The notes under the pieces were generated by a model. The model was not told the origin of the DNA. It saw nothing but the letters and a program-made list of their open reading frames with translations, and ran no database searches. Of a stretch of 64,000 bases of DNA, positions 686-59,911 are shown one piece after another (positions within the stretch are counted from its first letter, which is position 1; each line of letters opens with the position of its first letter). A program made the position numbers and the translations under genes. Source of the stretch: Thiothrix litoralis (GTDB taxonomy: Bacteria > Pseudomonadota > Gammaproteobacteria > Thiotrichales > Thiotrichaceae); the NCBI RefSeq assembly GCF_017901135.1, contig NZ_CP072801.1, positions 1,674,001 to 1,738,000 on the forward strand, in the 5' to 3' direction.

Positions 686-1822
686 TTACCCCATCAGCCG
701 CTCTACCAACCAAAACGCCCCCATCAAACCAATCAGCACAGACCCTACCTGCATGTAAGATCTTGACTGCTTTTGCTTGAACAATAACAACAACACAGGA
801 AAAATCAGCAAAATTGCCAGCAACTGCCCAGCCTCAACACCGAGATTGAAGAACAACAATGCACTGGCCACCTGATCACCCAGCCCGATTTCCTTGAGAA
901 TGTAGGAAAAGCCGAAACCGTGGATCAAGCCAAATAGAAAAGTCACCACGACACGACGCTTCCAAGGGGAAACTGGCTGTGGCTGGTGTTGCCGCTGCAA
1001 TTCGTAAAGGTTTTCAAGCGCCACGTAAACAATACTGAAGGCAATCGCCACTTCCACCCATGCAGCAGGCAGGTTGACAATATCCAGCACGGACAAGCCC
1101 AAGGTGATGGAGTGAGCCACGGTGAAAGAGGTCACCAGCGCCAACAAAGGTTTAATGCGAATGGGCAACATCAGCAGGGCAAGCAAGAAAAGTAGATGGT
1201 CAAATCCAAATAAAATATGCTTCACGCCTATCGGGAAATAATGGGTGGAGCTGAATAAGGCGCGGATTCCGCTAGCAGCTGGTGCATCCGGCGCTAATGT
1301 AGACATAGACGCCTGTTGTGATGCCTGTTGTGATGCACGCTTCTGCCATGCTGCCATGACCCTTCCGAGTGGCACCTGATGTTGGCGCTTTTCTGCCGAA
1401 AAGACAAAATCCTGGAAACGGTCGACGTTGGCAATGGCCAAACGGGTGAAATTTTGATGGTTGGGAAGCTGGTCGATAAAGAGCTTGTACTCAATCGTCA
1501 GTGTCTCAATGGCAGCGCCGCAGTCATACTCCATCTTAAATTGCTGTGAGGCAATATCATTCAGCACAAGGGTTCCAGCCGTTTTAGCCGTGCAGACGGC
1601 TTCACCATTTTTCATCACCAAGCCTTCGCGGATAGCTTGCTCCACCCCGGCCTCATCGGTATTCAGCGTCTTCAAATTGGCGATGGGAGCTGTATAAACA
1701 ACCGTAAGCTGGCTGTTGCTGGTGATGAGGATACCCGTATCCGTGACACCACCGGCAACATGAGCAAAGGCCGGTGTACTCAACAACCATAGCCAACTAA
1801 ACAATAATAGGTATTTAATCAT
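686..1822 (-). CDS. HupE/UreJ-type membrane protein with exported N-terminal domain
   Basis: 378 residues. A signal peptide (MIKYLLLFSWLWLLSTPAFA) is followed by a periplasmic domain of about 170 residues and a C-terminal membrane domain of about 180 residues with the HupE/UreJ_2 signatures HILFGFDHLLFLLALL, FTVAHSITL, GLIHGFGF and FNLGVEAGQ. Family members are proposed metal (nickel or cobalt) permeases, but this subfamily with a large ectodomain is uncharacterised. The ATG at 1822 is chosen because it exposes a clean signal peptide; the longer reading begins with TTG at 1915 and adds an unconvincing extension. It is divergent from the small protein at 2024 and flanks the YHYH/EF-hand cluster, so a shared role in metal or ligand handling is inferred. 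Confidence 0.75.
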   Translation of the reverse strand: MIKYLLLFSWLWLLSTPAFAHVAGGVTDTGILITSNSQLTVVYTAPIANLKTLNTDEAGVEQAIREGLVMKNGEAVCTAKTAGTLVLNDIASQQFKMEYDCGAAIETLTIEYKLFIDQLPNHQNFTRLAIANVDRFQDFVFSAEKRQHQVPLGRVMAAWQKRASQQASQQASMSTLAPDAPAASGIRALFSSTHYFPIGVKHILFGFDHLLFLLALLMLPIRIKPLLALVTSFTVAHSITLGLSVLDIVNLPAAWVEVAIAFSIVYVALENLYELQRQHQPQPVSPWKRRVVVTFLFGLIHGFGFSYILKEIGLGDQVASALLFFNLGVEAGQLLAILLIFPVLLLLFKQKQSRSYMQVGSVLIGLMGAFWLVERLMG

Positions 1823-1929
1823 GACAAACAACCAGATAAAGAAAAGAAGTGATAAGTGAGCATGTGATACTAATGCCGAAATGTGTATCAAATATGGACA
1901 AAACCAAGCTTTCAAGACATGAAAATCTC

Positions 1930-1963
1930 CATGACTTCTCCATATTTGCCCCTCACTTGCTCC
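1930..1963 (+). promoter_or_regulatory. 11-bp direct-repeat operator, three units
   Basis: Three consecutive 11-mers, CATGACTTCTC, CATATTTGCCC and CTCACTTGCTC, lie about 60 bp before the ATG at 2024, with a TTATTT -10-like sequence just downstream. The same motif with the same spacing recurs at 4809, 7723, 11832 and 14006. Tandem half-sites at 11-bp spacing are typical of OmpR/PhoB-family regulators; the regulator's identity is unknown. Confidence 0.5.
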
Positions 1964-2023
1964 TTATTTCACGATCAGAATGCACCCTGTCAATAAGACA
2001 ATAATCTAATCCAGGAGCTACTT

Positions 2024-2338
2024 ATGTTAAACACACCAAACAAACTGAAGTTTGCAACAGCCTTATTTCTCGCCTTTGCTACTTACGCGATGTCTTCCAA
2101 TGCAGAAACAGGTCGTGGCGGCCAAGGTGGTCAAGGCGGCCCTCAAGGTGGCCCACCTCAAGAAGCCATTCAAGCTTGCGCTTCACTAACAGAAGGCACT
2201 GCTTGTAGCTTTACAGGTCGCCAAGGTGAAACGATGACCGGTTCATGCATCACCCCACCACGCGGTGAAGCATCGTTGATCTGTGCTCCTGAAGGCGGCA
2301 AAATGCCTCCTCCAAGACCTGAGAAAAGTGCAGAGTAA
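2024..2338 (+). CDS. Small exported Gly/Pro-rich protein with four cysteines
   Basis: 104 residues. An N-terminal signal peptide ending near SSNA precedes a GGQGGQGGPQGGPP tract. The mature domain has four cysteines (ACASL, ACSF, GSCI, LICAP), probably two disulfides, and a proline-rich tail. A good Shine-Dalgarno (AGGAG, 2012-2016) fixes the start. It is transcribed alone, between an upstream array of 11-bp repeats and a strong terminator. I do not recognise a characterised family. The Gly/Pro tract resembles the C-termini of the neighbouring YHYH lipoproteins and the insert in the flavoprotein at 14948, suggesting exported proteins that work in one envelope system (inference). Confidence 0.75.
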   Translation: MLNTPNKLKFATALFLAFATYAMSSNAETGRGGQGGQGGPQGGPPQEAIQACASLTEGTACSFTGRQGETMTGSCITPPRGEASLICAPEGGKMPPPRPEKSAE

Positions 2339-2362
2339 CTGTCTGGCAACCAGCTAAACAGA

Positions 2363-2397
2363 AAACCGGCAAGCTTAATCGCTTGCCGGTTTTTTTT
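2363..2397 (+). terminator. Rho-independent terminator
   Basis: A 12-bp stem (AAACCGGCAAGC / GCTTGCCGGTTT) with a 6-nt loop is followed by a run of T, just after the small exported protein. The plus strand carries the T run; the minus strand has only a short A/T run, so it may weakly stop the convergent YHYH gene as well. Confidence 0.9.
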
Positions 2398-2402
2398 GTG
2401 GA

Positions 2403-3548
2403 CTATTTAATAATGGGTGAACTACGCTGGTCGACAAAAGCACCCTTAACACACGTTGGCATATTGGGCGCGTCCAATGAGGCATGGTAATGATAAATGC
2501 CATCAGGGAACTCCGCTGTCGCACTGGTGTGTCCGTTACACCCGTCCAGATCAGTAGGTGTGGTCGCCACACCATTCACCATATCTGCGTAGGAATAAAT
2601 CGGATAACCATCTTTCGCATAACCCGTTAAAGCCGTGCTGCTCTGGGTGATCTTGTTACCACAGTTTGCCAGATTGTCAGTACCGTGTGCCTGATGCACT
2701 TTATCAGCTGCCTCGGGAATTAAATGCCAGTGATAATAACCCGCCGGATCGTGATGCCCCCCGCAATAATCCAGTGATGGAATATTGCCACCAACAGCCG
2801 CCGCCATACCCGTAGGCCCTGTGACAACAGAAGGCGGCGTACCCGTAAAGGGAATACCATCCAATGACAGCCCGACAGGTTGCACACTACCGATCGCAGT
2901 GGGAGAAGTAGTATTTTGAGGTGTCACTGGTATCAGGTAAGTCACTGTCAACGCATCATTCGCCGAAGCATTCAGGCAAGCAGCTGTACAATTCTCTCCG
3001 GTAGTGGTTCCCAATCTTGGATCCTGAATACAAACCGTTCCGGCCACTTCATCGATCAGGTCATAACCATCTTTCGCCATGTTATCCCATAAGGTCTGGG
3101 TCAGACTCTGGAAGCCGGGGCCGCTGGCTCCATCATAAATACCCACACCACCATCCAGCATCGTGTAACCACTCGGGCAAAACGGACCTGCATCATCATC
3201 AACCAGATCGCCATTGCTGTTGTGTATCACATTGTCTTTAAAAACAAGCTTGTGACAGGTAGTGGAAGCGCCATTGCTTAATGTACAAGTCGTCGTGCCA
3301 GATGAAACAATCGACCGAAACAGGCTTACGTCAAGAATGGTGCTAGTGTCTGCGGTAGTGGAGGTAGTGGAGGCAGTCGAGGTGGTGGAGGTAGCGGTAG
3401 TGGTTGTATCCGTACTATCCACAGTACTACTCGTTGTACTACTGCTACTGTTGCATCCAGAGACAAGTGACATGGAACCCAATGCCATAATAAGTAAAGA
3501 TTTTTTTAGCACCTCAGGTGAGTGCTTGGTGGAGGACAAGTTGAACAT
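2403..3548 (-). CDS. YHYH-domain lipoprotein (first of three)
   Basis: 381 residues. A lipoprotein signal ends at LVSGC (Cys about residue 32) and is followed by a Ser/Thr linker of about 45 residues. The body is Cys-rich and carries the YHYH-domain hallmarks: CGGHHDPAGYYHWH, GYAKDGYPIY, LDGCNGH and FPDGIYHYHA. The domain name comes from the Tyr-His-Tyr-His motif; its function is not established, although the clustered His residues could bind metal (inference). An AGGG Shine-Dalgarno precedes the ATG at 3548. It lies 87 bp downstream of the paralogue at 3636-4766, separated by a perfect hairpin, and is probably co-transcribed with it. Unlike the other two it lacks the C-terminal Pro/Gly repeats. 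Confidence 0.8.
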   Translation of the reverse strand: MFNLSSTKHSPEVLKKSLLIMALGSMSLVSGCNSSSSTTSSTVDSTDTTTTATSTTSTASTTSTTADTSTILDVSLFRSIVSSGTTTCTLSNGASTTCHKLVFKDNVIHNSNGDLVDDDAGPFCPSGYTMLDGGVGIYDGASGPGFQSLTQTLWDNMAKDGYDLIDEVAGTVCIQDPRLGTTTGENCTAACLNASANDALTVTYLIPVTPQNTTSPTAIGSVQPVGLSLDGIPFTGTPPSVVTGPTGMAAAVGGNIPSLDYCGGHHDPAGYYHWHLIPEAADKVHQAHGTDNLANCGNKITQSSTALTGYAKDGYPIYSYADMVNGVATTPTDLDGCNGHTSATAEFPDGIYHYHASLDAPNMPTCVKGAFVDQRSSPIIK

Positions 3549-3589
3549 AAATTAACCCTGCTAGTATGAGTCTGTTTCCGGGTGGGCGA

Positions 3590-3626
3590 AATGACTGAAT
3601 CGGAATCGAATTCCTATTCAGTCATT
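3590..3626. repeat. 37-bp inverted repeat between two YHYH genes
   Basis: AATGACTGAAT pairs with ATTCAGTCATT, and the inner GGAAT with ATTCC, giving a long stem. It lies between the stop of one YHYH gene and the start of the next. There is no T run on either side, so it may be an RNA-processing or partial-termination hairpin that sets the expression ratio rather than a classical terminator. Confidence 0.7.
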
Positions 3627-3635
3627 CCAACGCAC

Positions 3636-4766
3636 TTATTGTGGTGGCAGCCCGGTAGGTGGTACGCCCCCTGCTGGTGGAACGCCGCCCGCTGGAGGTG
3701 CTCCCGCTGCGGCGGCGCTTGCAGACGTACCTTGCTCACCGTGGAAGCAGCCAATGAACGCATTATCACCCGCCGGAGCAGCATGATAATGGAAGCCACG
3801 AATAGCATCGGTATGACCACGGCATTGATCCAGATCAGTATTATCATTACCCGTGGGGTTCTTATTGGCGTAAATGCCGTAACCATCCATTGCATACCCC
3901 AACAGAGTGGCATGACCATCTTCTTGAATAGCTGACTCAGTACAGCCAGTAGCAGCGTGGTAATGGTAGCCAACATTTGGATTAACATGCCCACCACAAT
4001 CGTCGAATGCAGCAATGGTATGAGCACTCAAAATAGCATCAACCGGTGCTGCCAAGGCGAACGTGACGCCAGTCAATGAAATACCGACATTGCCATTGAG
4101 CGTTGCAGGTGTCGCTAATGGAACAGGGGTTTTGGGTATCAAGACCGTTTCCGAGATACCGCCGTTAACGTAATCCAGTGAACATTCCACACAATAATTT
4201 TGATATTCCGCCGCAACATTGGGCTGTGCCGCTGCCTCACAGGCCACCTGCGTATCGGTAATCTTTACCTTACCCGTTGCCAGATCATACAGTTGCCAAC
4301 TAGCATCGTTGTAAAGCGTCGGCAGATTGACAATGAAATTACCGTCAACATCGTAAGTTTCACCACTCCCATCAAGCCAAATACCCCCCTCTGTCGCGGT
4401 TGAAGTAATCGTGGGTGGGCAGAAAGGACCAACAGCATGATTGGCGGGAACACCTTTAACGCTAATCCGGTAGCATGTCGTTTGCGTCCCGCCACTCAGC
4501 ACACAATCTTCCGTGGTTGCAGCCTCAACCAGCGCCCCGCTGACAAAAAGATTGGGGTTAGGCCCCTCAGTAGCATCCGATGCGCTAACGACTGTAGTAG
4601 TACCCGTGCTGGTTGCAGGGGTTGTGGTTGTTGCTGTATCTGTCCCGGTTGTCGCTGTGTCCGTCCCGGTCGTAGTGGTTAATGTCGTGGAGGAGCTACC
4701 ACCGCACCCCTGTAGCCCGGCTACCAGCGTCAGACCCAGGAGTGCCCTGCGATATTGTATGTTCAT
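3636..4766 (-). CDS. YHYH-domain lipoprotein (second of three)
   Basis: 376 residues. The signal ends at GLQGC, shared almost word for word with the protein at 6402-7679. A Thr-rich linker is followed by a Cys-rich YHYH domain: DDCGGHVNPNVGYHYHA, GYAMDGYGIY, LDQCRGHTD and GFHYHAAP. The C-terminus is a Pro/Gly repeat tail (GAPPAGGVPPAGGVPP). The ATG at 4766 is preferred over 4778 because the sequence around it matches the start region of the third paralogue. A pair of 11-bp direct repeats lies 42 bp upstream. It is a predicted outer-membrane or surface lipoprotein; function unknown, with ligand or metal binding through His/Cys clusters inferred. Confidence 0.8.
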   Translation of the reverse strand: MNIQYRRALLGLTLVAGLQGCGGSSSTTLTTTTGTDTATTGTDTATTTTPATSTGTTTVVSASDATEGPNPNLFVSGALVEAATTEDCVLSGGTQTTCYRISVKGVPANHAVGPFCPPTITSTATEGGIWLDGSGETYDVDGNFIVNLPTLYNDASWQLYDLATGKVKITDTQVACEAAAQPNVAAEYQNYCVECSLDYVNGGISETVLIPKTPVPLATPATLNGNVGISLTGVTFALAAPVDAILSAHTIAAFDDCGGHVNPNVGYHYHAATGCTESAIQEDGHATLLGYAMDGYGIYANKNPTGNDNTDLDQCRGHTDAIRGFHYHAAPAGDNAFIGCFHGEQGTSASAAAAGAPPAGGVPPAGGVPPTGLPPQ

Positions 4767-4808
4767 ATTTGCCTTCATTAAATTTTGTTAAGAATGGCTA
4801 AATATACG

Positions 4809-4830
4809 AGGGAAATGTGAGGGAAATATG
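4809..4830 (-). promoter_or_regulatory. 11-bp direct-repeat operator, two units
   Basis: Read on the minus strand: CATATTTCCCT then CACATTTCCCT, an almost perfect tandem repeat at 11-bp spacing, followed at once by TATATT as a possible -10. It is centred about 50 bp before the ATG at 4766, the arrangement expected of an activator site overlapping the -35 region. Confidence 0.6.
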
Positions 4831-4887
4831 GAGGCGGACGCTGAACGGGGTTATTCGATGGGATTTTCGGGGAATATTCGCTACGTA

Positions 4888-4920
4888 CCCCCAGTTTACC
4901 AGATTTGGTTGAACTGGGGG
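4888..4920. repeat. Inverted repeat between EF-hand and YHYH genes
   Basis: CCCCCAGTT and AACTGGGGG form a 9-bp stem with a 15-nt loop, directly downstream of the EF-hand gene at 4980. On the plus strand it is followed by CTTTT, but the flanking genes are both on the minus strand, where no T run follows. It is a possible weak terminator or processing site. Confidence 0.55.
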
Positions 4921-4979
4921 CTTTTACGACAGCCTCGGTTTGGAGGCGGGGAGCGGTGGATTACACCACTCAGTCGGGA

Positions 4980-5621
4980 TTAATGACGGGGTGGCGGTAG
5001 GTTCCGACCCGTTGTTGTGGTCGTGCTGGTGTTAGTACCTTGACGGGCTTCTGGCTTTTGGGGTGCTGCGCCTGTTGTCGTTTGTGCACCTTGAGCGGGC
5101 GTTTCAGTGTACTCAGCCACGGACAGTTGGCTGTCTGCGTCCTTGTCTTTGCTGGCAAAGTCCCACACCAAACGACCTGTTTCTGTACTACCCAATGCAG
5201 ACATTTCTTCCAATGACAAAGACGCATCACTGCCAGCAATCAGGTTGAAAGCTGTGGCGGCTTGTGCTGCCGTTTTGTCAGCGAAAGCGGCGGCAAACTC
5301 TGTTGCACTGACGCTACCGCTTTTGTCAGCGTCCATCACGCCAAACATGGAGGAGGTACGTTCTACACGATGGGCATCATCCGCAGCCTTGAATTCATCG
5401 AAGGACAAGAATGTGTCAGCATTGGTATCAGCGGCGTTAAATTCTGCTGTTTTGCCAGCGAGCATCTCATCACGGGAGATAATGCCATCGCCACTGGTAT
5501 CGTATTTGAGCAGCATTTGTACCATGTCACTTTGTTGTCCAAGTACGGAGTCAGCCGCGAATACAGGCGCAGACAGAACACTCGCCAAAACAGCGATAGA
5601 CAGGATTGTTGTTTTCATCAT
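4980..5621 (-). CDS. Exported EF-hand calcium-binding protein
   Basis: 213 residues. A signal peptide (MMKTTILSIAVLASVLSAPVFA) is followed by several EF-hand loops: DTSGDGIISRDE (about 41-52), DTNADTFLSFDE, DADKSGSVSATE and a degenerate fourth (GSDASLSLEE), plus a final DKDADSQLSVAE. The C-terminal 45 residues are a Pro/Thr-rich low-complexity tail. Acidic residues at the canonical loop positions predict Ca2+ binding in the periplasm or outside the cell. It has its own upstream array of 11-bp repeats (5749-5792). Its position between YHYH lipoproteins and a second EF-hand protein suggests that Ca2+ is part of the system's chemistry or folding (inference). Confidence 0.85.
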   Translation of the reverse strand: MMKTTILSIAVLASVLSAPVFAADSVLGQQSDMVQMLLKYDTSGDGIISRDEMLAGKTAEFNAADTNADTFLSFDEFKAADDAHRVERTSSMFGVMDADKSGSVSATEFAAAFADKTAAQAATAFNLIAGSDASLSLEEMSALGSTETGRLVWDFASKDKDADSQLSVAEYTETPAQGAQTTTGAAPQKPEARQGTNTSTTTTTGRNLPPPRH

Positions 5622-5748
5622 TGATCACTCTATTAATTTTTAGTATTTGGGGTTTCGTTAGCAGCGCTGGGGATGCGCTGCCAACGAAGTGAATCATAGT
5701 TTGAGTAAATTGATTAATCAATGCAGTTTATTGTCATTTTAAAAACTT

Positions 5749-5792
5749 CACAATTCCTCCACAATTCCCCGCCATTTCTCCACAATCTCCAT
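5749..5792. promoter_or_regulatory. Four-unit 11-bp repeat array
   Basis: On the plus strand the units are CACAATTCCTC, CACAATTCCCC, GCCATTTCTCC and ACAATCTCCAT, in strict 11-bp register. They lie between the stop of the gene at 5792-6376 and the minus-strand EF-hand gene starting at 5621. The units resemble the CAYATTTNCYC boxes of the neighbouring promoters, but they sit on the strand opposite to the gene they precede. Confidence 0.45.
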
Positions 5793-6376
5793 CACGGCTT
5801 CTTGGTAAATAAGGGTGCTTCAGGCTGCTCAGGCGTTAAGACAAATTTATATTTTTCGGGTGCTGAGTCTGCGCCAAGTTTTCGCGTGGCTGTCATCTCA
5901 AGTGACCGTTCATCCGCCGTTTTCCCAAATAACCCAACATGAAGGGTTAGCTCATTGCTAGTGGCGGAGTCGATACTCGCCAAGGCAAAGCGCCCCATAA
6001 TCACCAGTTGTTCGTTAGGGGCTTGCGGTTCCTCGTGTGAAGCGACAGGTGATAGCATCAAACCTTGCAATGGCCGTGAGCCTTCCTTGTCAGTTAGCCT
6101 TACCTTTTCGTTGATAGCCGTCACAAGAGCTGCGCGGTGTTTGATGAATTCGCCCGCAGACATTTTACCGTCACCATCATCATCAATAGCATCAAAGGCT
6201 GACACGGGCAGTGACAGCACCATAAAGACACCATCGCCCTTGAAATTTAAGGTGCCGTGCTGAGCGACCATGAGGTGTGCTGATGCGTGCGGCACAATGG
6301 CCGCACTCAACACTAAGCTAGAGAGCAGAAGCTTGGCCTGAAACATCAGGCGTTTGTACTGGCTTTGCTTAGACAT
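5792..6376 (-). CDS. Exported protein with one EF-hand
   Basis: 194 residues. A signal peptide ends near HASA, and the mature protein begins with His (HLMVAQHGTLNF). One canonical EF-hand loop (DDDGDGKMSAGE) lies near residues 65-76. The remainder is probably beta-rich and not recognised; its general shape (Ala-His after the cleavage site, a soluble domain) recalls the periplasmic domains that precede HupE/UreJ-type transmembrane regions. It begins 25 bp after the YHYH gene at 6402-7679 and is almost certainly in the same operon. Confidence 0.75.
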   Translation of the reverse strand: MSKQSQYKRLMFQAKLLLSSLVLSAAIVPHASAHLMVAQHGTLNFKGDGVFMVLSLPVSAFDAIDDDGDGKMSAGEFIKHRAALVTAINEKVRLTDKEGSRPLQGLMLSPVASHEEPQAPNEQLVIMGRFALASIDSATSNELTLHVGLFGKTADERSLEMTATRKLGADSAPEKYKFVLTPEQPEAPLFTKKP

Positions 6377-6401
6377 CTTAATACCTGTTTATGAATGAAC
6401 A

Positions 6402-7679
6402 TTATTGTGGAGGGCCGCCCGCTGGAGGAGCACCCGCGCTTGCCACTGCACCTTTCACACAACGCTGGAAGTAAGGGTAGCTGTCCGTTGCATAGTAATG
6501 GTAGATGCCGTTAGGAAATTCCGGGGTTACACCAAAACGCCCGTTACACTCATCCAGATCCCCGGAGCCTGCGACATATTGCCAGTCCTGTTTAAACGTA
6601 CCCAGTGAATAAATGTCCACGGAAGGTCTGGTGTCGCTCACCGAAGTCACCAGTTGATAACTACCCGATACCTTCTTTATGGCTGAACTTGCATTAGTCG
6701 GGTCGCTGTAACCATAGCGTGCATAGATAGGGAAGCCATCTGCCGCCCAGCCGATTTGAGTCATTTTGGAGCTATTGCCACCTTTCAAGGTAATAAAACC
6801 TTCTGGCATCCCATGGTAGTGATAGGTACCATCGGGTTGAACGTGTGCGTTATTTTCATCAGCGCCAAAATCAAAACTGGTTTGTCCTAATGCTTCCAAA
6901 CTCCATGCACCGCTGTTGTCGCCACCAGCACAGGAAGTACCGTAATCCGTACAAGAACCACCGGTGCCAGCATCGATTTTAATACCATTCAGAATGTGTC
7001 CCTGAGGGCCTGCTGGGCCGCCACGGGTTGTCGCGACATCTGTCTTGGTGGGTGTTAGCGTATAGCTGGCTGTGACGGTCTGTTCTGAAATCGTATTCGG
7101 ATTACCGGGGTTAGGGAAAGTCCCAACCGCGTGATCAGGAATACCATTCGCCGCCAGCTCACGTGTTGTTCCCGTACAAGTCCAGGCTGAGGTACTGGTA
7201 GCATTCACCGAGCTGGATGCGTTGAATCCACTATAACTATAATCACACGCAACCCCATTGGTTGAAGTTGTGCCTGTGGTGGTGGTATTTGTCGTGGCGG
7301 TTATGACTACCTGATCGGTGGTGGTTTCTGTGCCATCACTGACGGCGACCTGAAACGTGTAGCTTCCTGCAACATCAGCCGTGAAGGTCGGGTTTACTGT
7401 AGTCATTGAATCGAGTACCGCAGCACTATTGGCAGGCACTGTCACCGCCGACCAGTAATAGGTAAGGCTGTTCCCATCTGCATCAGAGCTACCGCTGGCA
7501 TTCAGGCTAACGGTAGTACCAGGCGTCACATTTTGATCTACCCCGGCACTGGCTACGGGTGCTGTATTAGAACCTGTTGTGCTGGTTGTTGTCGTTACTG
7601 TCGATGAGGAGCCGCCGCACCCCTGTAACCCAGCTATCAGTGCTAGGCTCAGCAGTGTCTTGCGATATTGTATGTTCAT
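6402..7679 (-). CDS. PKD-like plus YHYH-domain lipoprotein (third of three)
   Basis: 425 residues. A lipoprotein signal ends at GLQGC, followed by a PKD/REJ-like beta-sandwich (about residues 45-135: APVASAGVDQNV, LNASGSSDADGN, SYTFQVAVSDG) and then the YHYH domain: GTYHYHGMPEGF, GWAADGFPIYARYGY, LDECNGRFG and FPNGIYHYYATDSYPY. A short GAPPAGGPPQ tail matches the second paralogue. The ATG at 7679 is chosen over an upstream in-frame codon because it directly precedes the lipoprotein signal, has GGGAAAT before it, and matches the paralogue at 4766. A pair of 11-bp repeats lies 43 bp upstream. First gene of an operon with the EF-hand protein at 5792. Confidence 0.85.
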   Translation of the reverse strand: MNIQYRKTLLSLALIAGLQGCGGSSSTVTTTTSTTGSNTAPVASAGVDQNVTPGTTVSLNASGSSDADGNSLTYYWSAVTVPANSAAVLDSMTTVNPTFTADVAGSYTFQVAVSDGTETTTDQVVITATTNTTTTGTTSTNGVACDYSYSGFNASSSVNATSTSAWTCTGTTRELAANGIPDHAVGTFPNPGNPNTISEQTVTASYTLTPTKTDVATTRGGPAGPQGHILNGIKIDAGTGGSCTDYGTSCAGGDNSGAWSLEALGQTSFDFGADENNAHVQPDGTYHYHGMPEGFITLKGGNSSKMTQIGWAADGFPIYARYGYSDPTNASSAIKKVSGSYQLVTSVSDTRPSVDIYSLGTFKQDWQYVAGSGDLDECNGRFGVTPEFPNGIYHYYATDSYPYFQRCVKGAVASAGAPPAGGPPQ

Positions 7680-7722
7680 ATTTCCCACTATTAGCGTTTG
7701 TTGGTGATAGCTAAAGATTACG

Positions 7723-7744
7723 GTGCAAATGTGAGGGAAATGTG
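7723..7744 (-). promoter_or_regulatory. 11-bp direct-repeat operator, two units
   Basis: Minus strand: CACATTTCCCT then CACATTTGCAC, followed by TAATCT as a possible -10. Spacing and position relative to the start (43 bp) match the site upstream of 4766 almost exactly, so the two YHYH promoters appear co-regulated. Confidence 0.6.
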
Positions 7745-7783
7745 GAGAGCGCAAAATAATCAGGGCTAAAGATGTTGACTACT

Positions 7784-7804
7784 CCCCACGGCTAAAGCCG
7801 GGGG
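7784..7804 (-). ncRNA. Right-end stem-loop, probable 3' part of TnpB guide RNA
   Basis: The hairpin GGGGG-AGCC-loop-GGCT-CCCC lies about 10 bp after the tnpB stop. In characterised TnpB systems the guide scaffold overlaps the 3' end of tnpB and runs through such a right-end structure, with the guide taken from the flanking DNA. Here the flank after the element runs into the promoter region of the YHYH gene. The RNA itself is predicted by analogy only. Confidence 0.35.
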
Positions 7805-7813
7805 ATTCCTAAT

Positions 7814-8965
7814 TCACCGAGAACAGGACGACGACACCGAAATGCCATCGCCACTAACATTCTCTCCAAAGGCTAACACCGCCAGCCCGGCGGCTAAAAT
7901 GTTACGTGCTGCATTCACGTCACGGTCGTGGGTTGTGCCGCATTCGGGGCACTCCCACGATCGCACGTCCAGCGGCATGTTTTCTTTCACGAACCCACAG
8001 CAGGAACAGCGTTTAGTGGACGGGAAGAATCTCCCTATCTCAACGTATGTCCTCCCGTACCAGCCAGCTTTGTACGCAAGCTGGCGAGTGAACTCACCCC
8101 AACTTGCATCCGCAATGTGCTTGGCTAACGTTGGGTTCTTAATCATGTTCTTCACGGCGAGGTTTTCAGCACAAACCACTTGGTTCTCGTTAATCAGTTT
8201 GCGGGACAACTTGTGCAAGTTGTCCGAACGGTCATCGGAAATTTTCGCGTGAACACGGGCGACCTTGCGTTTAGCTTTCAACCGGTTCTTGCTGCCGAGT
8301 GTCTTCTTGGCAAGACGGCGTTGGTACTTCGCGAGTTTAGCCGCGTGTTGTGCGGTGTGGCGGGGATTACCGGATTTAAAACCGTCAGAGGTAACGAACA
8401 AATCCTTGATGCCCACGTCAATGCCTGCCTTTTTATCGGTGACGGGCAACAGCGTGGGTTCAAATTCACACAAGCAAGACACAAAATAGCGTCCGGCCTG
8501 ATCTTTGGAAACAGTAACCGTGGTGGGGTCAGCCGGAAGTGCCTGACTCCACTTGATATTCAGCGGTTTATCGCACTTCGCCAGTTTCAATTCACCGTCA
8601 CGGTAGCTGAACGCGCGGTACGTGAATTCAGCCGATTGGCGGTGCTTTTTAGATTTGAAGACAGGGTATTTTGCCCGACCTTCAAAGAAGTTTTTGAACG
8701 CCGTTTGCTGATTCCTCAAGCATTGTTGCAGCGGAACACTGGAAACGTCGTTCAGGAAAGTAGCTTCAGGCAGTTTTTTGATGGCAGTCAGTTGGGAACT
8801 CGCTTTCGTGTACCCAACTTTTTCCTGAGCCTGATAGTAGGCATCCGTGCGGTAACGCAAGATGCTGTTGTAAACGTAGCGCACACAACCGAACGTCTGA
8901 ACCAGCAACGTTTCTTGTTGTGGGTCTGGGTAGAATCGGAATTGGTAGGCGCGTTTAGTTTTCAT
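7814..8965 (-). CDS. tnpB: TnpB RNA-guided endonuclease, full length
   Basis: 383 residues, normal TnpB size. The N-terminal OrfB helix-turn-helix region (AYQFRFYPDPQQ, FGCVRYVYNSIL) is followed by a split RuvC fold with all three acidic residues: GIDVGIKDL (Asp), VCAENLAVKNM (Glu) and THDRDVNAARN (Asp). A four-Cys zinc finger (CSCCG ... CPECG) sits between the last two. It is therefore predicted to be active for reRNA-guided DNA cleavage. Characterised relatives protect IS605-type elements from loss by cutting the empty donor site. There is no clear Shine-Dalgarno before the ATG. A close relative begins at 63668. Confidence 0.92.
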   Translation of the reverse strand: MKTKRAYQFRFYPDPQQETLLVQTFGCVRYVYNSILRYRTDAYYQAQEKVGYTKASSQLTAIKKLPEATFLNDVSSVPLQQCLRNQQTAFKNFFEGRAKYPVFKSKKHRQSAEFTYRAFSYRDGELKLAKCDKPLNIKWSQALPADPTTVTVSKDQAGRYFVSCLCEFEPTLLPVTDKKAGIDVGIKDLFVTSDGFKSGNPRHTAQHAAKLAKYQRRLAKKTLGSKNRLKAKRKVARVHAKISDDRSDNLHKLSRKLINENQVVCAENLAVKNMIKNPTLAKHIADASWGEFTRQLAYKAGWYGRTYVEIGRFFPSTKRCSCCGFVKENMPLDVRSWECPECGTTHDRDVNAARNILAAGLAVLAFGENVSGDGISVSSSCSR

Positions 8966-9082
8966 TATTCACAAAATATCGTATATTTCGTGAAGAGTCA
9001 ACAACCGAAGATAGCAAACCAAACGGAGGAGCGAGAAGAGGGTCGGCTGTCGCCGACGCGCTATCCCTCCCCATGCCTAAAG

Positions 9083-10667
9083 GTTAGCGTTCACGCCCTC
9101 TATTAGGCATTTCAGCGACTTTGTAGTAAATTCTCCCCATCCCAACAGCGAGTCATTTTCCCCTTGTTAGCCCCCGTTTCCCACTTACCCACGACACTGG
9201 ATGAAGCGCATCAGGTAATCGTGCGCCAACAAGAACGAATAGCTGAGTTGGAGAAGCAAGTGGCACGGGTAGCAGTGCTGGAGCAACAAGTCGAAGCCCT
9301 GCAACAACATATCGAAGAACTAGTGGCTAAATTCGGCAGCAGTTCGCTCAACAGTTCCAAACCGCCCTCATCCGACAGTCCCGAACAACGGGCGTTGCGC
9401 CCTAAACGCAAGGGGAGTAGCCGCGCTCAGGGTGGCCAACCGGGGCATCCGCGTCACGAACGGGCGTTATATCCTGCCGAACAAGTGACGCGCACCGAAC
9501 AGTATTTCCCTGAAAGCACCTGTCCCTGTGGCGGTGCAGTGGCGATTGACTGGGGAAACCCTTACTGCCATCAGGTCACGGATATTGCGCCGCCACCACC
9601 GCCGGATGTGACGGAACACCAGTTTTACCACGGTATTTGCCAATCCTGCGGCATCAAGCATCACAGTCAGTGGCCCGATTGGGTGCCGAGCGGTCAAATG
9701 GGCGCGGGCGTTATTGCATGGGTGGTGATCCTGAGCGGTCAGTTCCGCCTGTCGATGCGTCAGATTCAAGTGCTGTTGTGGGAAATGTGCCAGATACGTT
9801 TCAGCACGGGTGCAATCAGCAACGCCCAAGGCAAAGCGATTCCGTGGATGGGCCGCTGTACCGTCAAGTGGGTCAGCATGTGCGCGAACAAGCAGTGTGC
9901 CATGCCGATGAAACCCGCCATTATCGGGGGACGAACACCTATTGGTTATGGGCATTGGCGGATAATACGGTCAGTTACTTCATGACCCATTACTCCCGTG
10001 GCAAGGCGGCGGCGGATGCGTTGCTGGGTAGCTTTAGCGGTTATTTAGTCACCGACCACTTCAGTGGTTACGGCAATGTCCCGCCCGAACGGCGGCAACT
10101 GTGTTGGGCGCATTTGATCCGGCACTTCCGCAAAATAGCAGGACGCTGTGGCGAAGGGGGAATCGTGGGCAAACGCCTGTTGTTACTCGCTTATGCCACG
10201 ATTCGCACCCATCACCGTTGGCAACAACATCCCGACCAAGCCACCCGCTACCGACGGCGGATACTGCGCTTGCGCCGCAGCTTCCAAGCCACGCTCAACC
10301 AAGGTGTGGCTTTGCACAATTGCAAGCGCACCACCAACCAATGTAAGCATCTGCTCAAGGATGAGGCGATGTGTTGGACATTCCTCAAGGATGACCGGAT
10401 TCCCCTCACCAATAACCGTGCTGAGCGGGTGATCAGGCCGTATGTGCAATGGCGCAAAACCAGCTTTGCCAGCCAGTCGGCACAAGGTGACAGGTTTCGT
10501 CCGACGGTGCTGACGGTGTTGGGAACGGCGCGTCAATTGGGCATGAATATGGCGACCTTGATGCGCGAAGTTTGCTCCCAAGGCTTGGCGCATAAGCCCG
10601 TCTCGGTGCGCTTCCCGTTGGATCAAGCCAGTGCCTGCAACCCGCTACAGATGGCGTGAACGCTAAC
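9083..10667 (+). mobile_element. IS66-family (ISBst12-like) insertion sequence
   Basis: 1585 bp bounded by perfect 15-bp inverted repeats, GTTAGCGTTCACGCC at 9083-9097 and its complement at 10653-10667; the right repeat contains the transposase stop codon. The size, the single transposase gene and the GTTAGCG terminus fit tnpC-only IS66 elements. The 8-bp flanks (GCCTAAAG and TCGCCTGA) differ, so no target duplication remains. The right flank is a 5'-truncated second IS66 transposase and the left flank is a TnpB left end, so this junction has been rearranged. Confidence 0.75.
9164..10659 (+). pseudogene. IS66-family transposase, single frameshift
   Basis: The N-terminal half (9164 to about 9850) has a leucine-zipper-like coiled coil, the SSLNSSKPPSSD motif and a CPCGG..CQSCG zinc-binding region. 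The C-terminal half continues in another frame with the DDE residues (VCHADETRHY, LVTDHFSGY, NNRAERVIRPYV). The halves join in sense if one G is restored to the GGG run at 9850-9852 (one base missing). IS66 transposases are normally a single ORF, so this is best read as a frameshift mutation or a homopolymer sequencing error. Programmed frameshifting is less likely because no strong slippery heptamer is present. The apparent start is TTG at 9164. Confidence 0.8.
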
Positions 10668-11807
10668 TCGCCTGATCATGTGGAACATTATGGTATCGAA
10701 GGGCATTGTGAATGCGGCTTACCCTTGTCCGAAGCCCTGCTCGACACAGGTGAACGCCGCCAGCAATGGGACATCCCGGCTCCGCAAATCGTGGTGACAG
10801 AATACCGCCAACTCATTGGCACTTGTAGCTGCGGCAACGTTCATAAAGGCAAGTTCCCAACGTCCCTGCCGCCTTACATCAGTTACGGCGCACGTCTGAA
10901 AGCCTATACGGTGGGTTTAGTACAAGGTCACTTCATTTCGCTGTCACGGGTAACGGAGATTGTGTCCGACCAATACGGAGTCAAGCCTTCCGATGGCAGT
11001 GTGCAACGCTGGATCGGTCAGGCGAGTGAAAACCTTGCGACAACGTACACGGACATTCGGGACACCATCAGCAGCAGTGCCGTGGCGAACTTTGATGAAA
11101 GTGGTATCCGAGCGCAAGGCAAGACCCAATGGCTGCATGTGGCAGCCACCCCGGAAGCCGTTTACTACACTGCCCATGCACGGCGCGGACAGGAGGCAAT
11201 GACGGCGGCGGGAATCCTACCGGTATTTCAAGGCGTTGCGGTTCATGATCATTGGAAACCTTATTTCCGCTTTGATCATGTGGTACACAGCCTTTGCGTA
11301 ACGCATCTGCTGCGGGAGTTGAACTACTTTGATGAAACCCTCAAGCATCAATGGCCAGCACAACTCAAACAAGTCTTGATTGATGCCAAAACAGCCGTGG
11401 CACAGGCAAAAGCAGTACAACAAACGTCACTGTCGCCGGAGCAAATTGCCGACGTGGAGCAGCGTTATGACCAATGGCTGAACCACGGACTGTTGATTTT
11501 CCCCGAACAACCCAAAACCAGCCCTACTAAACAAGGTAAAGCCAAACAAGACCCTGCCAGAAACTTGTTATGCCGTCTGCGCGATTTCAAGGATTCGGTG
11601 TTGCGATTCATTCAGCGGTTTGACGTACCGTTTGACAACAATCTGGCTGAACGAGCTGTTCGACCCGTCAAAGTCAAACTCAAGGTGGCGGGTGGATTCC
11701 GGGCAATGGGCGGTGCTGATGCTTTTTGTGTCATTCGTTCTGTGTGGGAAACTGACAAACTTCAGGAACGAAATCCGTTTGAGTCCCTCAGAGCGGTTTT
11801 CGGATAG
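10656..11807 (+). pseudogene. IS66-family transposase, 5'-truncated
   Basis: 383 codons of a second, different IS66 transposase beginning inside the right inverted repeat of the preceding IS, whose GTG supplies an artificial start. The leucine zipper and SSxNSSKPPSSD region of the family are missing, so roughly the first 100 or more residues are lost. The remainder is good: a zinc-binding CECG..CSCG region, and catalytic residues in VANFDESGIR, VAVHDHWKPYF and NNLAERAVRPVK. Its own right end is probably the GAGTAGTTAC sequence ending at 11820. Whether the shortened protein is made or functional is doubtful. Confidence 0.75.
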
Positions 11808-11831
11808 ACTGAGTAGTTACGATTTTTTCTA

Positions 11832-11853
11832 CATATTTACTCCATTTTCTGGG
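11832..11853 (+). promoter_or_regulatory. 11-bp direct-repeat operator upstream of kefB
   Basis: CATATTTACTC followed directly by CATTTTCTGGG, then TTTACC. It is embedded in a stretch of about 36 bp that recurs with four visible mismatches at 14000-14036, before the next operon. The match to the YHYH promoter boxes (CATATTTCCCT/CACATTTCCCT) is clear in the first unit. It is 64 bp before the small ORF at 11917 and about 200 bp before kefB. Confidence 0.5.
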
Positions 11854-11916
11854 TTTACCCTGCCGGGCATTGAGTTCAACGGCTGAGAAAAGCTGCTTAA
11901 ACCCTGCAACCAGATC

Positions 11917-12051
11917 ATGGAAACAGGGCAAAAGCCAAATGAACTTGCAACAACATACCCGACATTTCAAATCAAGATTGACCGTGAGCAAAACCGTTTG
12001 CGGGAAGATGATTGTGTCGATATCGAAGCCATTATTACGGGAGCTAAATAA
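11917..12051 (+). CDS. Possible 44-residue ORF ahead of kefB
   Basis: A short frame (MET-GQKPNELATTYPTFQIK ... IEAIITGAK) whose TAA overlaps the kefB ATG (TAATG), giving classic translational coupling. It contains the kefB Shine-Dalgarno (GGGAG). No Shine-Dalgarno of its own is evident, and the frame continues a few codons upstream to a stop at 11884. It could be a leader or coupling peptide, or the remnant 3' end of a gene lost when the IS66 elements arrived. No family recognised. Confidence 0.3.
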   Translation: METGQKPNELATTYPTFQIKIDREQNRLREDDCVDIEAIITGAK

Positions 12052-13973
12052 TGGATGGATTTCTATTTCAGGCATTTATTTATCTGTGTGCCGCTGTTAT
12101 TGCCGTACCCATTGCCAAACGTCTGGGATTGGGTTCGGTGCTTGGCTATCTGATTGCCGGGATCGTTATCGGCCCGCTAACAGGATTGGTCGGTTCCAAT
12201 GCAGAAGCGATGCAAGAACTTCAGAACTTCGCCGAGTTTGGCGTGGTAATGATGCTGTTTCTGGTCGGCCTGGAACTGGAACCGCACATGTTGTGGGAAA
12301 TGCGCAACCGTTTGCTAGGGCTGGGAGGCTTGCAGGTAAGCATTACGACTGCCCTGATTACCGGCGCGGCCTTGTTACTAGGGCTGTACTGGAGTGTGGC
12401 GCTGGCTATCGGCCTGATACTTTCACTGTCGTCGACAGCCATCGTGCTGCAAACCTTGAACGAGAAAGGCTTGACCAAAACGGATGGGGGGCGTGCCAGC
12501 TTCTCGATATTGCTATTTCAGGATATGGCCGTCATTCCCATACTGGCGCTGATACCGCTGCTGGCCTTACCAGAACTGACGAATGAAGCGGCTGCCCATA
12601 CGCAAACGCAGGGTGAACATCTGAGTCTGGTCACGGGCTTGCCCGGTTGGGCACATGCGCTGGTTGTCATAAATGCTGTAGCGGCCATTCTACTCTGCGG
12701 GCACTTTCTGGCGCGTCCCCTGTTTCGTTTCATTGCCACCACGCGTCTGCCGGAAATATTTACGGCCAGCGCATTGCTGCTGGTAATCGGCATTGCCCTG
12801 CTGATGACACTGGTTGGGCTTTCCCCTGCACTGGGTACATTTCTGGCGGGCGTGGTGCTGGCGGATAGCGAGTTTCGCCATGAACTGGAATCAAACATCG
12901 AACCATTCAAGGGGCTACTGCTGGGTCTGTTCTTTATCACGGTCGGCGCAGGTATCGACGTTAAAATCCTGTTTGGTGACTTCACCACCATACTGGGGCT
13001 GACCTTGGGCGTGATGCTGCTCAAAGGCGCGGTGTTATTCGGCCTTGCACGGCTGTTCAGCCTGAAGCTGGGCGACAAATGGCTGTTTACACTGGGGCTG
13101 TCACAGGTAGGTGAATTCGGCTTTGTGTTATTGAATTTCTCTTTGGGGCAATATGTACTGCCCCCCGAACTGGCGCAAACCCTATCACTGGTGGTTGCCC
13201 TTTCCATGTTGCTGACACCTATCCTGTTTATTTTTTATGACAAGTTCATCCCGACACGTTTACAGAGACAGAATAATGCAGAAGCGGATGCCATCGACGA
13301 ACAAGGCTCCGTCATTATCGCGGGCAGTGGCCGTTTCGGACAAATCGTCAACCGCCTGCTGATATCCAGTGGTATATCGACCGTGGTGCTGGATCACGAA
13401 GCCTCAACGATTGATATGCTGCGCCAGTTTGGCATCAAGAGCCATTATGGCGATGCTTCGCGACCGGATTTGTTACACGCCGCCGGTATCGAACAGGCAA
13501 GGGCACTGGTTATAGCCATCGACGACCAGAAGCGCACGGTCGAAATCGTTGAATACGTCAAGCGTCGTTACCCGCATATCAAAATTTTTGCACGTGCTTT
13601 CGACATCAAGCATGACTACACACTCAAGAAAAAAGGCGCGGATGTTGCCGTGCGTGAGGTGTTCAGCGGCTCCTTGCAAATGGGCGCTGAAGTCCTGAAA
13701 GCGCTGGGAATGCATCCGTTCGATGTGGAGAAAATGAGTCATGCTTTCCGCCGTCATGATCAGGCAGCCACGGAACAACTGTACGGAATCTGGGATCAGG
13801 ATCCCGATATTATCAATAACCAGCTATTCATCACCCGCGCCCAGGAACACAGTGAAACGCTCAGGGAAATACTGGAAGTTGACCTACTGCAACTGCATGA
13901 CTGCACTGAACGGGGCTGGACACCACCGCCCAAAGATTATGCGCAGAAGCTGGTTGATCAGCACCCAACATAA
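12051..13973 (+). CDS. CPA2-family K+/H+ antiporter with RCK domain (KefB/KefC type)
   Basis: 640 residues. About 12 transmembrane helices (residues 1-395) form the Na_H_Exchanger fold, with typical segments IAKRLGLGSVLGYLIAGIVIGP, GVVMMLFLVGLELEP and LSSTAIVLQTL. A cytosolic RCK/TrkA-N domain begins at GSVIIAGSGRFGQIVNRLL (about 418), a Rossmann nucleotide-binding motif, and runs to about residue 530; a C-terminal tail of about 100 residues follows. It is an inner-membrane K+ efflux or K+/H+ exchange protein, in relatives gated by glutathione adducts or nucleotides. GGGAG lies 8 bp before the ATG. The upstream 11-bp repeats link it to the YHYH and flavoprotein operons. Confidence 0.9.
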   Translation: MDGFLFQAFIYLCAAVIAVPIAKRLGLGSVLGYLIAGIVIGPLTGLVGSNAEAMQELQNFAEFGVVMMLFLVGLELEPHMLWEMRNRLLGLGGLQVSITTALITGAALLLGLYWSVALAIGLILSLSSTAIVLQTLNEKGLTKTDGGRASFSILLFQDMAVIPILALIPLLALPELTNEAAAHTQTQGEHLSLVTGLPGWAHALVVINAVAAILLCGHFLARPLFRFIATTRLPEIFTASALLLVIGIALLMTLVGLSPALGTFLAGVVLADSEFRHELESNIEPFKGLLLGLFFITVGAGIDVKILFGDFTTILGLTLGVMLLKGAVLFGLARLFSLKLGDKWLFTLGLSQVGEFGFVLLNFSLGQYVLPPELAQTLSLVVALSMLLTPILFIFYDKFIPTRLQRQNNAEADAIDEQGSVIIAGSGRFGQIVNRLLISSGISTVVLDHEASTIDMLRQFGIKSHYGDASRPDLLHAAGIEQARALVIAIDDQKRTVEIVEYVKRRYPHIKIFARAFDIKHDYTLKKKGADVAVREVFSGSLQMGAEVLKALGMHPFDVEKMSHAFRRHDQAATEQLYGIWDQDPDIINNQLFITRAQEHSETLREILEVDLLQLHDCTERGWTPPPKDYAQKLVDQHPT

Positions 13974-14005
13974 TGGCTTACTTCACCATTTCCAGCTTGT
14001 TTCTA

Positions 14006-14027
14006 CACATTTACTCCACTTTCTGGG
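14006..14027 (+). promoter_or_regulatory. 11-bp direct-repeat operator upstream of ferredoxin operon
   Basis: CACATTTACTC followed by CACTTTCTGGG, then TTTACC, 50 bp before the ferredoxin ATG. The 36-bp context duplicates the site at 11832, and the first unit matches the YHYH promoter boxes. The same regulator is inferred. Confidence 0.55.
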
Positions 14028-14076
14028 TTTACCCTGACAGGTAATCCAGTCAAAACTCACCCATTAGGGGGTATCC

Positions 14077-14292
14077 ATGAGCATACACAGTATTAACGGC
14101 TGCATCGGCTGTGAAGAATGCATCAAATCCTGTCCCACAGATGTCATACGTCTGGACCCGAAGACAAAAAAGGCGGTCATCAAATACGTGGCAGATTGCC
14201 AGATTTGTCATTTGTGCCGCCTGTATTGCCCGGTGGATGCCATCATTATCGCACCGGAAAAAACCATACCGGTGATTGTATCGTGGGGCTAA
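14077..14292 (+). CDS. Two-[4Fe-4S] ferredoxin-like protein
   Basis: 71 residues with two complete CxxCxxCxxxCP motifs: CIGCEECIKSCP and CQICHLCRLYCP. This is a bacterial-type 2[4Fe-4S] protein that resembles the electron-transfer subunit of adenylylsulfate reductase or fumarate-reductase-like enzymes in style. There is no signal peptide, so it is cytoplasmic. It is the first gene of a tight three-gene operon (2-bp gap, then a 4-bp overlap). It could feed electrons to the membrane protein encoded next. A GGGGGTAT sequence precedes the ATG. Confidence 0.85.
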   Translation: MSIHSINGCIGCEECIKSCPTDVIRLDPKTKKAVIKYVADCQICHLCRLYCPVDAIIIAPEKTIPVIVSWG

Positions 14293-14294
14293 CC

Positions 14295-16735: not shown

Positions 16736-17019
16736 CCGGTATTTAAAGATGCGCTGAATCTGATGCTGTCCGGTAAGGATGGCATCGAGATTGTCCGTGA
16801 ACTGTACAGTATTTGCGTGGCTCCCCCCCTTTCCGTTAACATTCTGCCCATGCTGCTTAAGCCCTGTTGAATATGCCCTATTCGGGGCATGGCAATTTTC
16901 ACTAAACGGGATAAAATCCGAAGATGTCACAGTCGGCTGGATGAGGCAGGCGTCGCCATTTGCTACGGTTACAGAAACGTCTGAACCTTATCCAGTTGAC
17001 ACCCTACCCAAGGAAACAC

Positions 17020-59792: not shown

Positions 59793-59911
59793 TCATGACT
59801 TCCACTTTTTTTACACAATTCAATCATATTTCGTGCGTGATTTAGCCGTATCGTTACACCTGTTGAAAGGGAAAACACTTTCACCTAACAGTAACTAACC
59901 GGAGTGATACC

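Follow-up and report, generated by a model that had tools for sequence, protein, structure and literature searches.

Tandem 11-bp promoter boxes in Thiothrix litoralis and a BaeR-like candidate regulator

The BaeSR two-component system of Escherichia coli and Salmonella (mdtABCD-baeSR, acrD, spy) is the closest described counterpart of the element considered here, a tandem 11-bp box present at promoters in a 64,000-nucleotide stretch of the Thiothrix litoralis genome (positions 1,674,001 to 1,738,000 of contig NZ_CP072801.1; the window). BaeR sites have a CTNCA core and are summarized by the consensus sequences TTTTTCTCCATDATTGGC and TCTNCANAA (PMC3799227); in other bacteria, BaeSR responds among other things to osmotic stress, ethanol, indole, and metals (PMC3160322, PMC7657598). 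ArcA sites are direct repeats 11 bp apart centre to centre, often with more than two units (PMC3798270).

How does the Thiothrix element compare? It shares with BaeSR the families of regulator and kinase, the CTNCA core, and, in the best matches before mdtA, acrD, and spy, a TANNNT hexamer at +13, i.e., 13 nt past the start of the last unit; the BaeR site is quoted as an 18-mer or a 9-mer (PMC3799227), while the Thiothrix site consists of 11-bp units tied to a -10 hexamer. The putative targets also differ: YHYH/HupE surface genes, an electron-transfer set, a CotH operon, and kefB. Neither an efflux pump nor a spy gene lies downstream of the 12 own-genome matches of a model (R1) introduced below, a survey in which resistance-nodulation-division pumps were not searched for. 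PhoB- and ArcA-type boxes are likewise direct repeats at 11 bp, with a different unit sequence; unlike ArcA sites, the Thiothrix box keeps one place and one orientation relative to the -10. The sequence comparisons below suggest that the boxes are probably tandem half-sites of an OmpR/PhoB-family regulator, most likely the BaeR-like protein BaeR2, one half of a putative second envelope-stress pair of BaeS/BaeR type, and that they mark an autoregulated BaeR-type regulon. Among the matches listed in the open-licence literature (titles and the beginnings of abstracts), none describes a BaeSR regulon in Thiothrix.

The boxes and their distance to the -10 hexamer

The initial annotation placed tandem units before five genes or operons, and all five are confirmed in coordinates and register, on the sense strand and in 11-bp steps. 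S1 (1930..1981, plus strand), before the gene of a small Cys-containing protein, has four units (at 1930, 1941, 1952, and 1963), reading CATATTTGCCC CTCACTTGCTC with the proximal unit CTTATTTCACGAT, followed by CAGAAT (1976-1981). S2 (4801..4836, minus strand; CTC CATATTTCCCT, proximal unit CACATTTCCCTCG, then TATATT) precedes YHYH_b, and S3 (7715..7750, minus strand; CTC CACATTTCCCT, proximal unit CACATTTGCACCG, then TAATCT) precedes YHYH_c; both match a 33-nt pattern that includes the fixed -10 with 0 mismatches. S4 (11826..11861, plus strand; CTA CATATTTACTC, proximal unit CATTTTCTGGGTT, then TACCCT) lies before kefB and S5 (14000..14035, plus strand; CTA CACATTTACTC, proximal unit CACTTTCTGGGTT, then TACCCT) before the ferredoxin/flavoprotein genes. 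The -10-like hexamer that the initial annotation noted after most boxes takes a precise form in S2-S5, where TANNNT begins exactly 13 nt past the proximal-unit start; S1, the poorest fit to the rule, has CAGAAT there. A further box, S7 (1867..1902, minus strand; TTTGTCCATATTTGATACACATTT-N6-TAGTAT), absent from the initial annotation, precedes a HupE/UreJ_2 gene.

Most Thiothrix boxes read CTCCA or CTACA where published BaeR sites have CTNCA: the core is present in S2, S3, S4, S5, the box of the cotH operon, and the first units of S1, while S7 has GTCCA and the box of the sensor gene baeS2 in the own genome has ATCCA in its place. A promoter scan lists no sigma70-type -35/-10 pair (at least 9/12 matching positions) at S1-S5, as would be expected if an activator took the place of the -35 element.

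The tandem 11-base boxes are real; the repeat and its spacing are visible in the letters themselves. The two-unit pattern CAYATTTNCYCCAYATTT, allowed up to 3 mismatches, matches the window 14 times where 1.10 matches would be expected, a count that 0 of 100 shuffles attain. Nine of the 14 fall at named promoters (1930/1941/1952, 4802/4813, 7727, 11821/11832, 14006); the remaining five are one at the HupE site, two in an array at 5749, and two elsewhere (13721, 41152). In an ungapped alignment of 20 sites, placed in the 11-bp register by construction, self-identity is 0.62 at a shift of 11 bp vs 0.13-0.42 at other shifts from 5 to 17. The 33-nt pattern is found 6 times in the window vs 0.00 expected, and 13 times in the own genome (a 4.28-Mb single contig) vs 2 matches of a reversed control. 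Genome-wide, the pattern of the initial annotation gives 59 matches vs 20 for its reversed form; 14 genome matches have 1-2 mismatches, seven in the window stretch, three at the baeS2/cotH locus, and four elsewhere.

Might the boxes be non-regulatory, either chance matches or one promoter spread by duplication? S4 and S5 share nearly the same sequence for some 39 bp and are therefore not independent sites, and S2 and S3 may be copies too, given that YHYH_b and YHYH_c have similar sequence at their beginnings. However, the enrichment over shuffles and reversed patterns, the fixed -10 distance, and boxes in other species that have diverged yet hold their position make this explanation scarcely credible.

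Held-out promoters and other genomes

Conservation was assessed with a matrix of 24 columns built from S1-S5 only, the -10 columns excluded, and applied to the 150 bp upstream of 19 other genes; the null comprised 15,075 150-bp segments from the same loci. Sixteen of the 19 held-out promoters exceed every null segment, the highest of which scores 12.5 bits. Among the 17 regions above 10 bits, TANNNT occurs at +13 in 16 and nowhere else between offsets 7 and 30. T. lacustris contributes little here, as most of its stretches match the window at 94-98% identity; with its sites set aside, the hexamer is at +13 in 11/11. Start positions of the held-out genes were placed by eye, which in a few cases is out by some nucleotides. 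The initial annotation had cautioned that such a matrix might hit random regions as often as promoters; it spares the null segments instead.

Ten of the held-out promoters were picked by protein homology alone: baeS2 of T. lacustris DSM 21227 (G009), T. fructosivorans (G049), G058, G056, G005, G042, G037, and G025, which are all the places with at least 51% identity besides the own one (the own genome is G000), and the YHYH genes of G049 and G058. Eight of the ten carry the box, all eight with the -10 at +13. The remaining sites (cotH, G000 baeS2, the other T. lacustris cluster sites, G062 baeS2, HupE) were first seen through pattern matches. Altogether, the box stands at eight of ten baeS2 promoters examined (G000, G009, G049, G058, G056, G062, G005, and G025). 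S7 scores 20.1 bits, a value reached by 0/15,075 null segments, and its T. lacustris counterpart 16.0 bits; T. lacustris also retains the S1 sequence and has an identical 33-nt match to S5. Boxes before orthologous genes, which the initial annotation expected, are thus present in other species, kefB being the exception discussed below.

A wider view comes from 247 upstream regions, drawn from 18 fetched loci (two of them overlapping) and not from whole genomes. Nineteen exceed 12 bits: 17 are named sites (16 distinct, as the HupE site is counted twice in two overlapping loci; three are training sites) and two are others. TANNNT stands at +13 in 16 of these 19 vs 0 of the 226 regions below 9 bits.

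Further matches to the 33-nt pattern in the own genome lie before a CotH-type lipoprotein operon (CotH-DUF4956-porin; 1977184), at the promoter of the BaeS-like kinase gene baeS2 (1972042), before an Lcl_C-domain gene (141612), and before a tiny open reading frame (ORF) adjoining nusB (1365700). Three of the 13 matches (1107786, 2115282, 3080638) were counted as chance. Among genome matches, those at 1107786, 2115282, 2264082, and 2919072 are within longer ORFs; the one at 3004655 falls between genes, roughly 230 nt ahead of the next, and is without TANNNT at +13; and 3080638 has no suitably placed downstream gene. All were taken as chance. Matches in G022, G061, G049 (C6:977429), G028, G001 (C18:1334, C23), G045, G053, and G040 were inspected and none was adopted. 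Model R1, trained on 20 sites, gives 12 own-genome matches, among which the cotH box, a training site, scores highest (28.9 bits); E values in the own genome are 5e-4 for S2, also a training site, and 0.317 for S1. None of ten genomes without BaeR2 has an R1 match below E 0.018; in the six genomes that do have it, strong matches are a circular result of the training.

The candidate regulator BaeR2 and its paralogue BaeR1

Which protein would read the boxes? The initial annotation proposed an OmpR/PhoB-family activator and anticipated sites before a regulator/kinase pair, and both proposals gain support: in the own genome, about 290 kb from the window, a kinase gene (baeS2; locus L009, 2051-492) is divergent from a response-regulator gene (baeR2; L009, 2070-2744), and the box at 1972042 lies between them, before the kinase gene. 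BaeR2 combines a receiver domain (PF00072) with Trans_reg_C (PF00486), matches BaeR best among NCBIfam models (NF007982, 325 bits; next CreB, 229), and has BaeR 4b09 as its best sequence relative in the PDB (272 bits; next 163). Together with the CTNCA core of most boxes, these features point to an activator of this family. BaeS2 matches BaeS best (NF012163, 403 bits), and its close named relatives are those of T. lacustris DSM 21227 and T. fructosivorans. The pair carries the number 2 because each of the 16 Thiothrix genomes also has a paralogue, BaeR1.

Gene linkage ties the presumed targets to the regulator. In T. fructosivorans and G058, a YHYH gene (PF14240) with a box before it sits between baeS2 and baeR2, followed by a gene for a small protein; the two small proteins are 74% identical, only that of G058 has a weak EF-hand match, and similarity to the window protein at 5792..6376 is weak (pairwise E 7e-4 for G058, 0.27 for T. 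fructosivorans). A HupE_UreJ gene is present in the G058 locus as well, but its subfamily is not that of the window gene. In G062, baeR2 is directly followed by an Lcl_C gene with a weak box-like site (model R1 E 0.32); the product of this Lcl_C gene is 56% identical to that of the own-genome Lcl_C gene at 141612. In G056, a gene for a di-haem cytochrome c peroxidase (PF03150), divergent from baeS2, carries units. Six of the 16 Thiothrix genomes encode BaeR2, and every genome with YHYH_c (four of the 16) belongs to these six, a co-occurrence that yields no clean probability since the species are related.

From these patterns we infer binding, activation, phosphorylation, the signal, and which genes are co-transcribed, i.e., the extents of the operons. 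An envelope or periplasmic signal would be sensed by BaeS2, which would phosphorylate BaeR2; phosphorylated BaeR2 would then bind the 11-bp repeats head to tail, as reported for ArcA and PhoB (PMC3798270). Each unit (CAYATTTNCYN; with the upstream CT, CTCCAYATTT) would hold one BaeR2 monomer, so that the monomers would line up on one helix face, one turn apart. With the proximal unit in the place of the -35 element, BaeR2 could recruit RNA polymerase to TANNNT at its fixed distance of 13 nt. The genes switched on would be (i) baeS2 itself, providing feedback; (ii) the surface set made up of the YHYH, HupE, and small Cys proteins, together with the adjacent EF-hand genes; (iii) the ferredoxin-membrane protein-flavoprotein chain with OsmC; and (iv) the CotH-DUF4956-porin operon, the Lcl_C-domain protein, and the acquired kefB. 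A K+/H+ antiporter, an electron chain, and surface proteins would then answer to one signal, as the initial annotation had surmised.

Another OmpR/PhoB-family regulator might bind the boxes, in which case their position at baeS2/baeR2 would reflect cross-regulation. Direct repeats at 11 bp are known in other members of the family, e.g., ArcA (PMC3798270), and the search that led to BaeR2 had 51 first-look candidates in the own genome. We regard this as highly unlikely: boxes occur at baeS2 promoters in two genera, YHYH and Lcl_C genes are linked to baeS2R2, the CTNCA core is that of published BaeR sites, and E. coli BaeR targets fit the layout. Upstream of these targets in E. coli K-12, the best same-strand match scores 17.5 bits at mdtA, 9.5 at acrD, and 8.8 at spy, and all three have TANNNT at +13 (TACACT, TACCTT, and TACACT, respectively), a suggestive agreement with the 13-nt arrangement.

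Several observations weigh against a BaeR2 regulon as drawn here. The register at mdtA is ambiguous by 1 nt, and that of the published 18-mer gives a spacing of 14; scores at spy and acrD are only moderate. BaeR2 and BaeS2 miss the NCBIfam equivalog cut-offs (325 < 380 and 403 < 500 bits, respectively) and are therefore called BaeR-like and BaeS-like, not BaeSR. S1 is without TANNNT at +13, and the cytochrome-peroxidase promoter of G056 has CACCAT where it is expected. The baeS2 homologues of G042 and G037, of another genus, are without a box in the 150 bp upstream, and baeS2 of G025 scores 11.3 bits, as do or surpass 20 of the 15,075 null segments. Two genomes without BaeR2 have promoter-like matches, each some 65 nt ahead of an ORF and followed by TANNNT at +13 (G001 C18:1334 and G028 C1:562116; model R1 lists neither). 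The box of kefB is not found before its nearest relative among the 16 genomes (in G061), cotH is present in 1 of the 16, and the HupE-like and EF-hand-like genes at the G058 locus are not closely related to those in the window. Finally, a related box linked to nusB is conserved in 14 of the 16 genomes; BaeR2 is absent from 8 of these 14 (and from 10 of the 16 overall).

This nusB-linked box (CTACACATTTTCTGCACATCTGCGCGTTATGCT and variants; L047 3701-3736, own genome 1365700; also L071, L072, L076-L084, L087, and L096) lies in the own genome between nusB and an ORF of about 55 codons ending like RGERMQRWQHRLERLFARQVY; such an ORF also follows the nusB-type box in three other loci looked at. It brings BaeR1 into play. 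BaeR1 is present in 16/16 Thiothrix genomes, is 50-54% identical to BaeR2 (51% within the own genome), and adjoins a Spy/CpxP-like gene in the own genome; BaeR1 and BaeS1, too, have the BaeR and BaeS models as their top matches (309 and 441 bits). The promoters immediately downstream of BaeR1 (L046 4574-4700, own genome ~1921570-1921700; loci L112-L115 and L117-L126) have other units, CACATTGTTTG-CACAATTGCAG-CAAATTTCGTG-CGCAAT, in 11-bp steps, with TANNNT 13 nt past the last-unit start; among 16 loci, 12 show this by pattern and 14 by eye. The two pairs are paralogous and share the 11-bp/13-nt layout; they differ in unit sequence and in the universal presence of BaeR1.

Is the regulon, then, bound mainly or jointly by BaeR1? 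Its universality, the common layout, and the nusB-linked box, intermediate in sequence and common in genomes without BaeR2, would fit; BaeR1 may share sites, and related boxes may be read by it or by a different regulator. We nevertheless consider a main or joint role of BaeR1 in the regulon unlikely: the promoters linked to BaeR1 use the CACAATTGCAG-CAAATTTCGTG-CGCAAT units, the CTCCAYATTT box is located at the promoter of baeS2 itself, and YHYH_c occurs only alongside BaeR2 among the 16 genomes. The proteins differ as well, at an N/K position in the stretch that, by analogy with the PhoB structure, would be the recognition helix: it reads HIKNLRRKL in E. coli BaeR, H[IV]KNLRRK[LI] in the six BaeR2, and HIKKLRKKL in BaeR1 at all but one of the 16 loci, where a single residue of it is unread.

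BaeR2 as the principal reader of the CTCCAYATTT boxes leads to a broader proposal, to which we give about even chances. A BaeR-type promoter grammar would be shared from Thiothrix to E. coli, with same-phase 11-bp units replacing the -35 element and the -10 locked 13 nt from the last unit start; after duplication one pair would have kept the grammar while its partner moved to another unit, with an N-to-K exchange in the stretch presumed to be the recognition helix; and the free-standing module would have drawn lineage-specific and acquired genes (kefB, the cotH operon) into a programme of surface redox and envelope functions centred on YHYH. The regulon in itself would place formerly unlinked hypothetical genes, open to test as a set, under a named candidate regulator, the uncharacterized YHYH proteins would gain a regulatory handle, and the K+/H+ antiporter and the electron-transfer set would be tied to a candidate envelope signal. 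The BaeR-type site appears precise enough for target prediction in other genomes, and BaeR1 and BaeR2, with two box types, make it possible to ask in a natural setting how cross-talk between paralogous response regulators is avoided.

Genes of the window and putative lineage-specific members

The surface cluster begins with a gene for a HupE/UreJ_2-family membrane protein (686..1822, minus strand; PF13795, E 4e-46; start by eye, longest ORF 686-1915). The small Cys-containing, Gly/Pro-rich protein (2024..2338, plus strand; 104 aa, signal peptide by eye) has no match in Pfam or NCBIfam. All further genes up to YHYH_c are on the minus strand: YHYH_a (2403..3548; PF14240, E 2e-24), downstream of YHYH_b (3636..4766; PF14240, E 5e-14; longest ORF starts at 4778), an EF-hand protein (4980..5621; PF00036 and others), a protein with a weak EF-hand match (5792..6376), and YHYH_c (6402..7679; PF14240, E 5e-65; longest ORF to 7754), which has a PKD domain. 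The three YHYH proteins are lipoproteins by eye, and among the papers listed by a phrase search of the literature, none has YHYH in its title or abstract. YHYH_c has no convincing solved relative, weak matches being confined to its N-terminal low-complexity part; its predicted structure, with a mean predicted local distance difference test score (pLDDT) of 27.8, was not used. A sigma70-like site lies before the first EF-hand gene (5721-5693, minus strand); shuffles give such sites equally often.

S6, the array CACAATTCCTC-CACAATTCCCC-GCCATTTCTC-CACAATCTCC (5749..5795, plus strand), had been listed as a related four-unit array. It exists as sequence, with a last step of 10 bp, not 11, and a model R1 E of 2.5; a promoter role finds no support. 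It faces away from both neighbour genes, is without TANNNT at +13, and has surroundings largely absent in T. lacustris (window 5306-5784 finds no match there). Another matrix match (59808-59843; TTTTTACACAATTCAATCATATTTCGTGCG, 15.8 bits), before an ORF at 59912-60298, is also without TANNNT at +13.

In T. lacustris (L097), the gene order is OsmC-flavoprotein-membrane protein-ferredoxin, S5 and S3 back to back, YHYH_c, the EF-hand genes, YHYH_b, YHYH_a, the small Cys protein, and HupE; the two window segments 6408-7746 and 13980-16851 are contiguous there (blastn), and S3 and S5 form back-to-back divergent promoters. Relative to this arrangement, the window has an insertion (7747..13979) with a TnpB-type gene (by eye), IS66-type transposase frames (the ORF at 10656-11807 matches DDE_Tnp_IS66), and kefB, a KefB-like cation/H+ antiporter gene with TrkA_N (12051..13973, plus strand; PF00999, PF02254). 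The nearest kefB relative among the 16 genomes, in G061, is 54% identical and others are at 32-37%. Judged by its sequence context, kefB looks like a recent, lineage-specific recruit, and the regulon seems to combine a shared core (baeS2, YHYH) with lineage-specific additions. TnpB-type genes (by eye) are near-identical at two genome places, window 7814-8965 and L046 1352-2503. A 44-aa ORF (11917-12051) overlaps the kefB start at its end (TAATGG), which suggests translational coupling.

Downstream of S5, genes for a 2x4Fe-4S ferredoxin, a ferric-reductase-like membrane protein, a flavoprotein with a signal of the twin-arginine translocation (Tat) type (by eye), and an OsmC-like protein (14077..17439, plus strand) follow in the order that T. 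lacustris also has. The T. lacustris Lcl_C gene (L100 2683-2917) is reduced to about its first 56 codons, and its box-bearing promoter is intact. Pro/Gly-rich stretches (PPAGG, GPPPGG, PPPFPPPAGPPP) are common to several regulon proteins and the sensor BaeS2 (window 2024-2338, 3636-4766, 6402-7679, and 14948-16735; L009 492-2033 for BaeS2); a Pro/Gly score of at least 7/12 is reached by 5 of 18 valid rows vs 3 of 76 control ORFs, one control being T. lacustris BaeS2. Elsewhere in the window, a full Mfd-like helicase gene (by eye; 49653-53138) is followed, after three other ORFs, by a second, partial copy of its C-terminal region (56813-58126).

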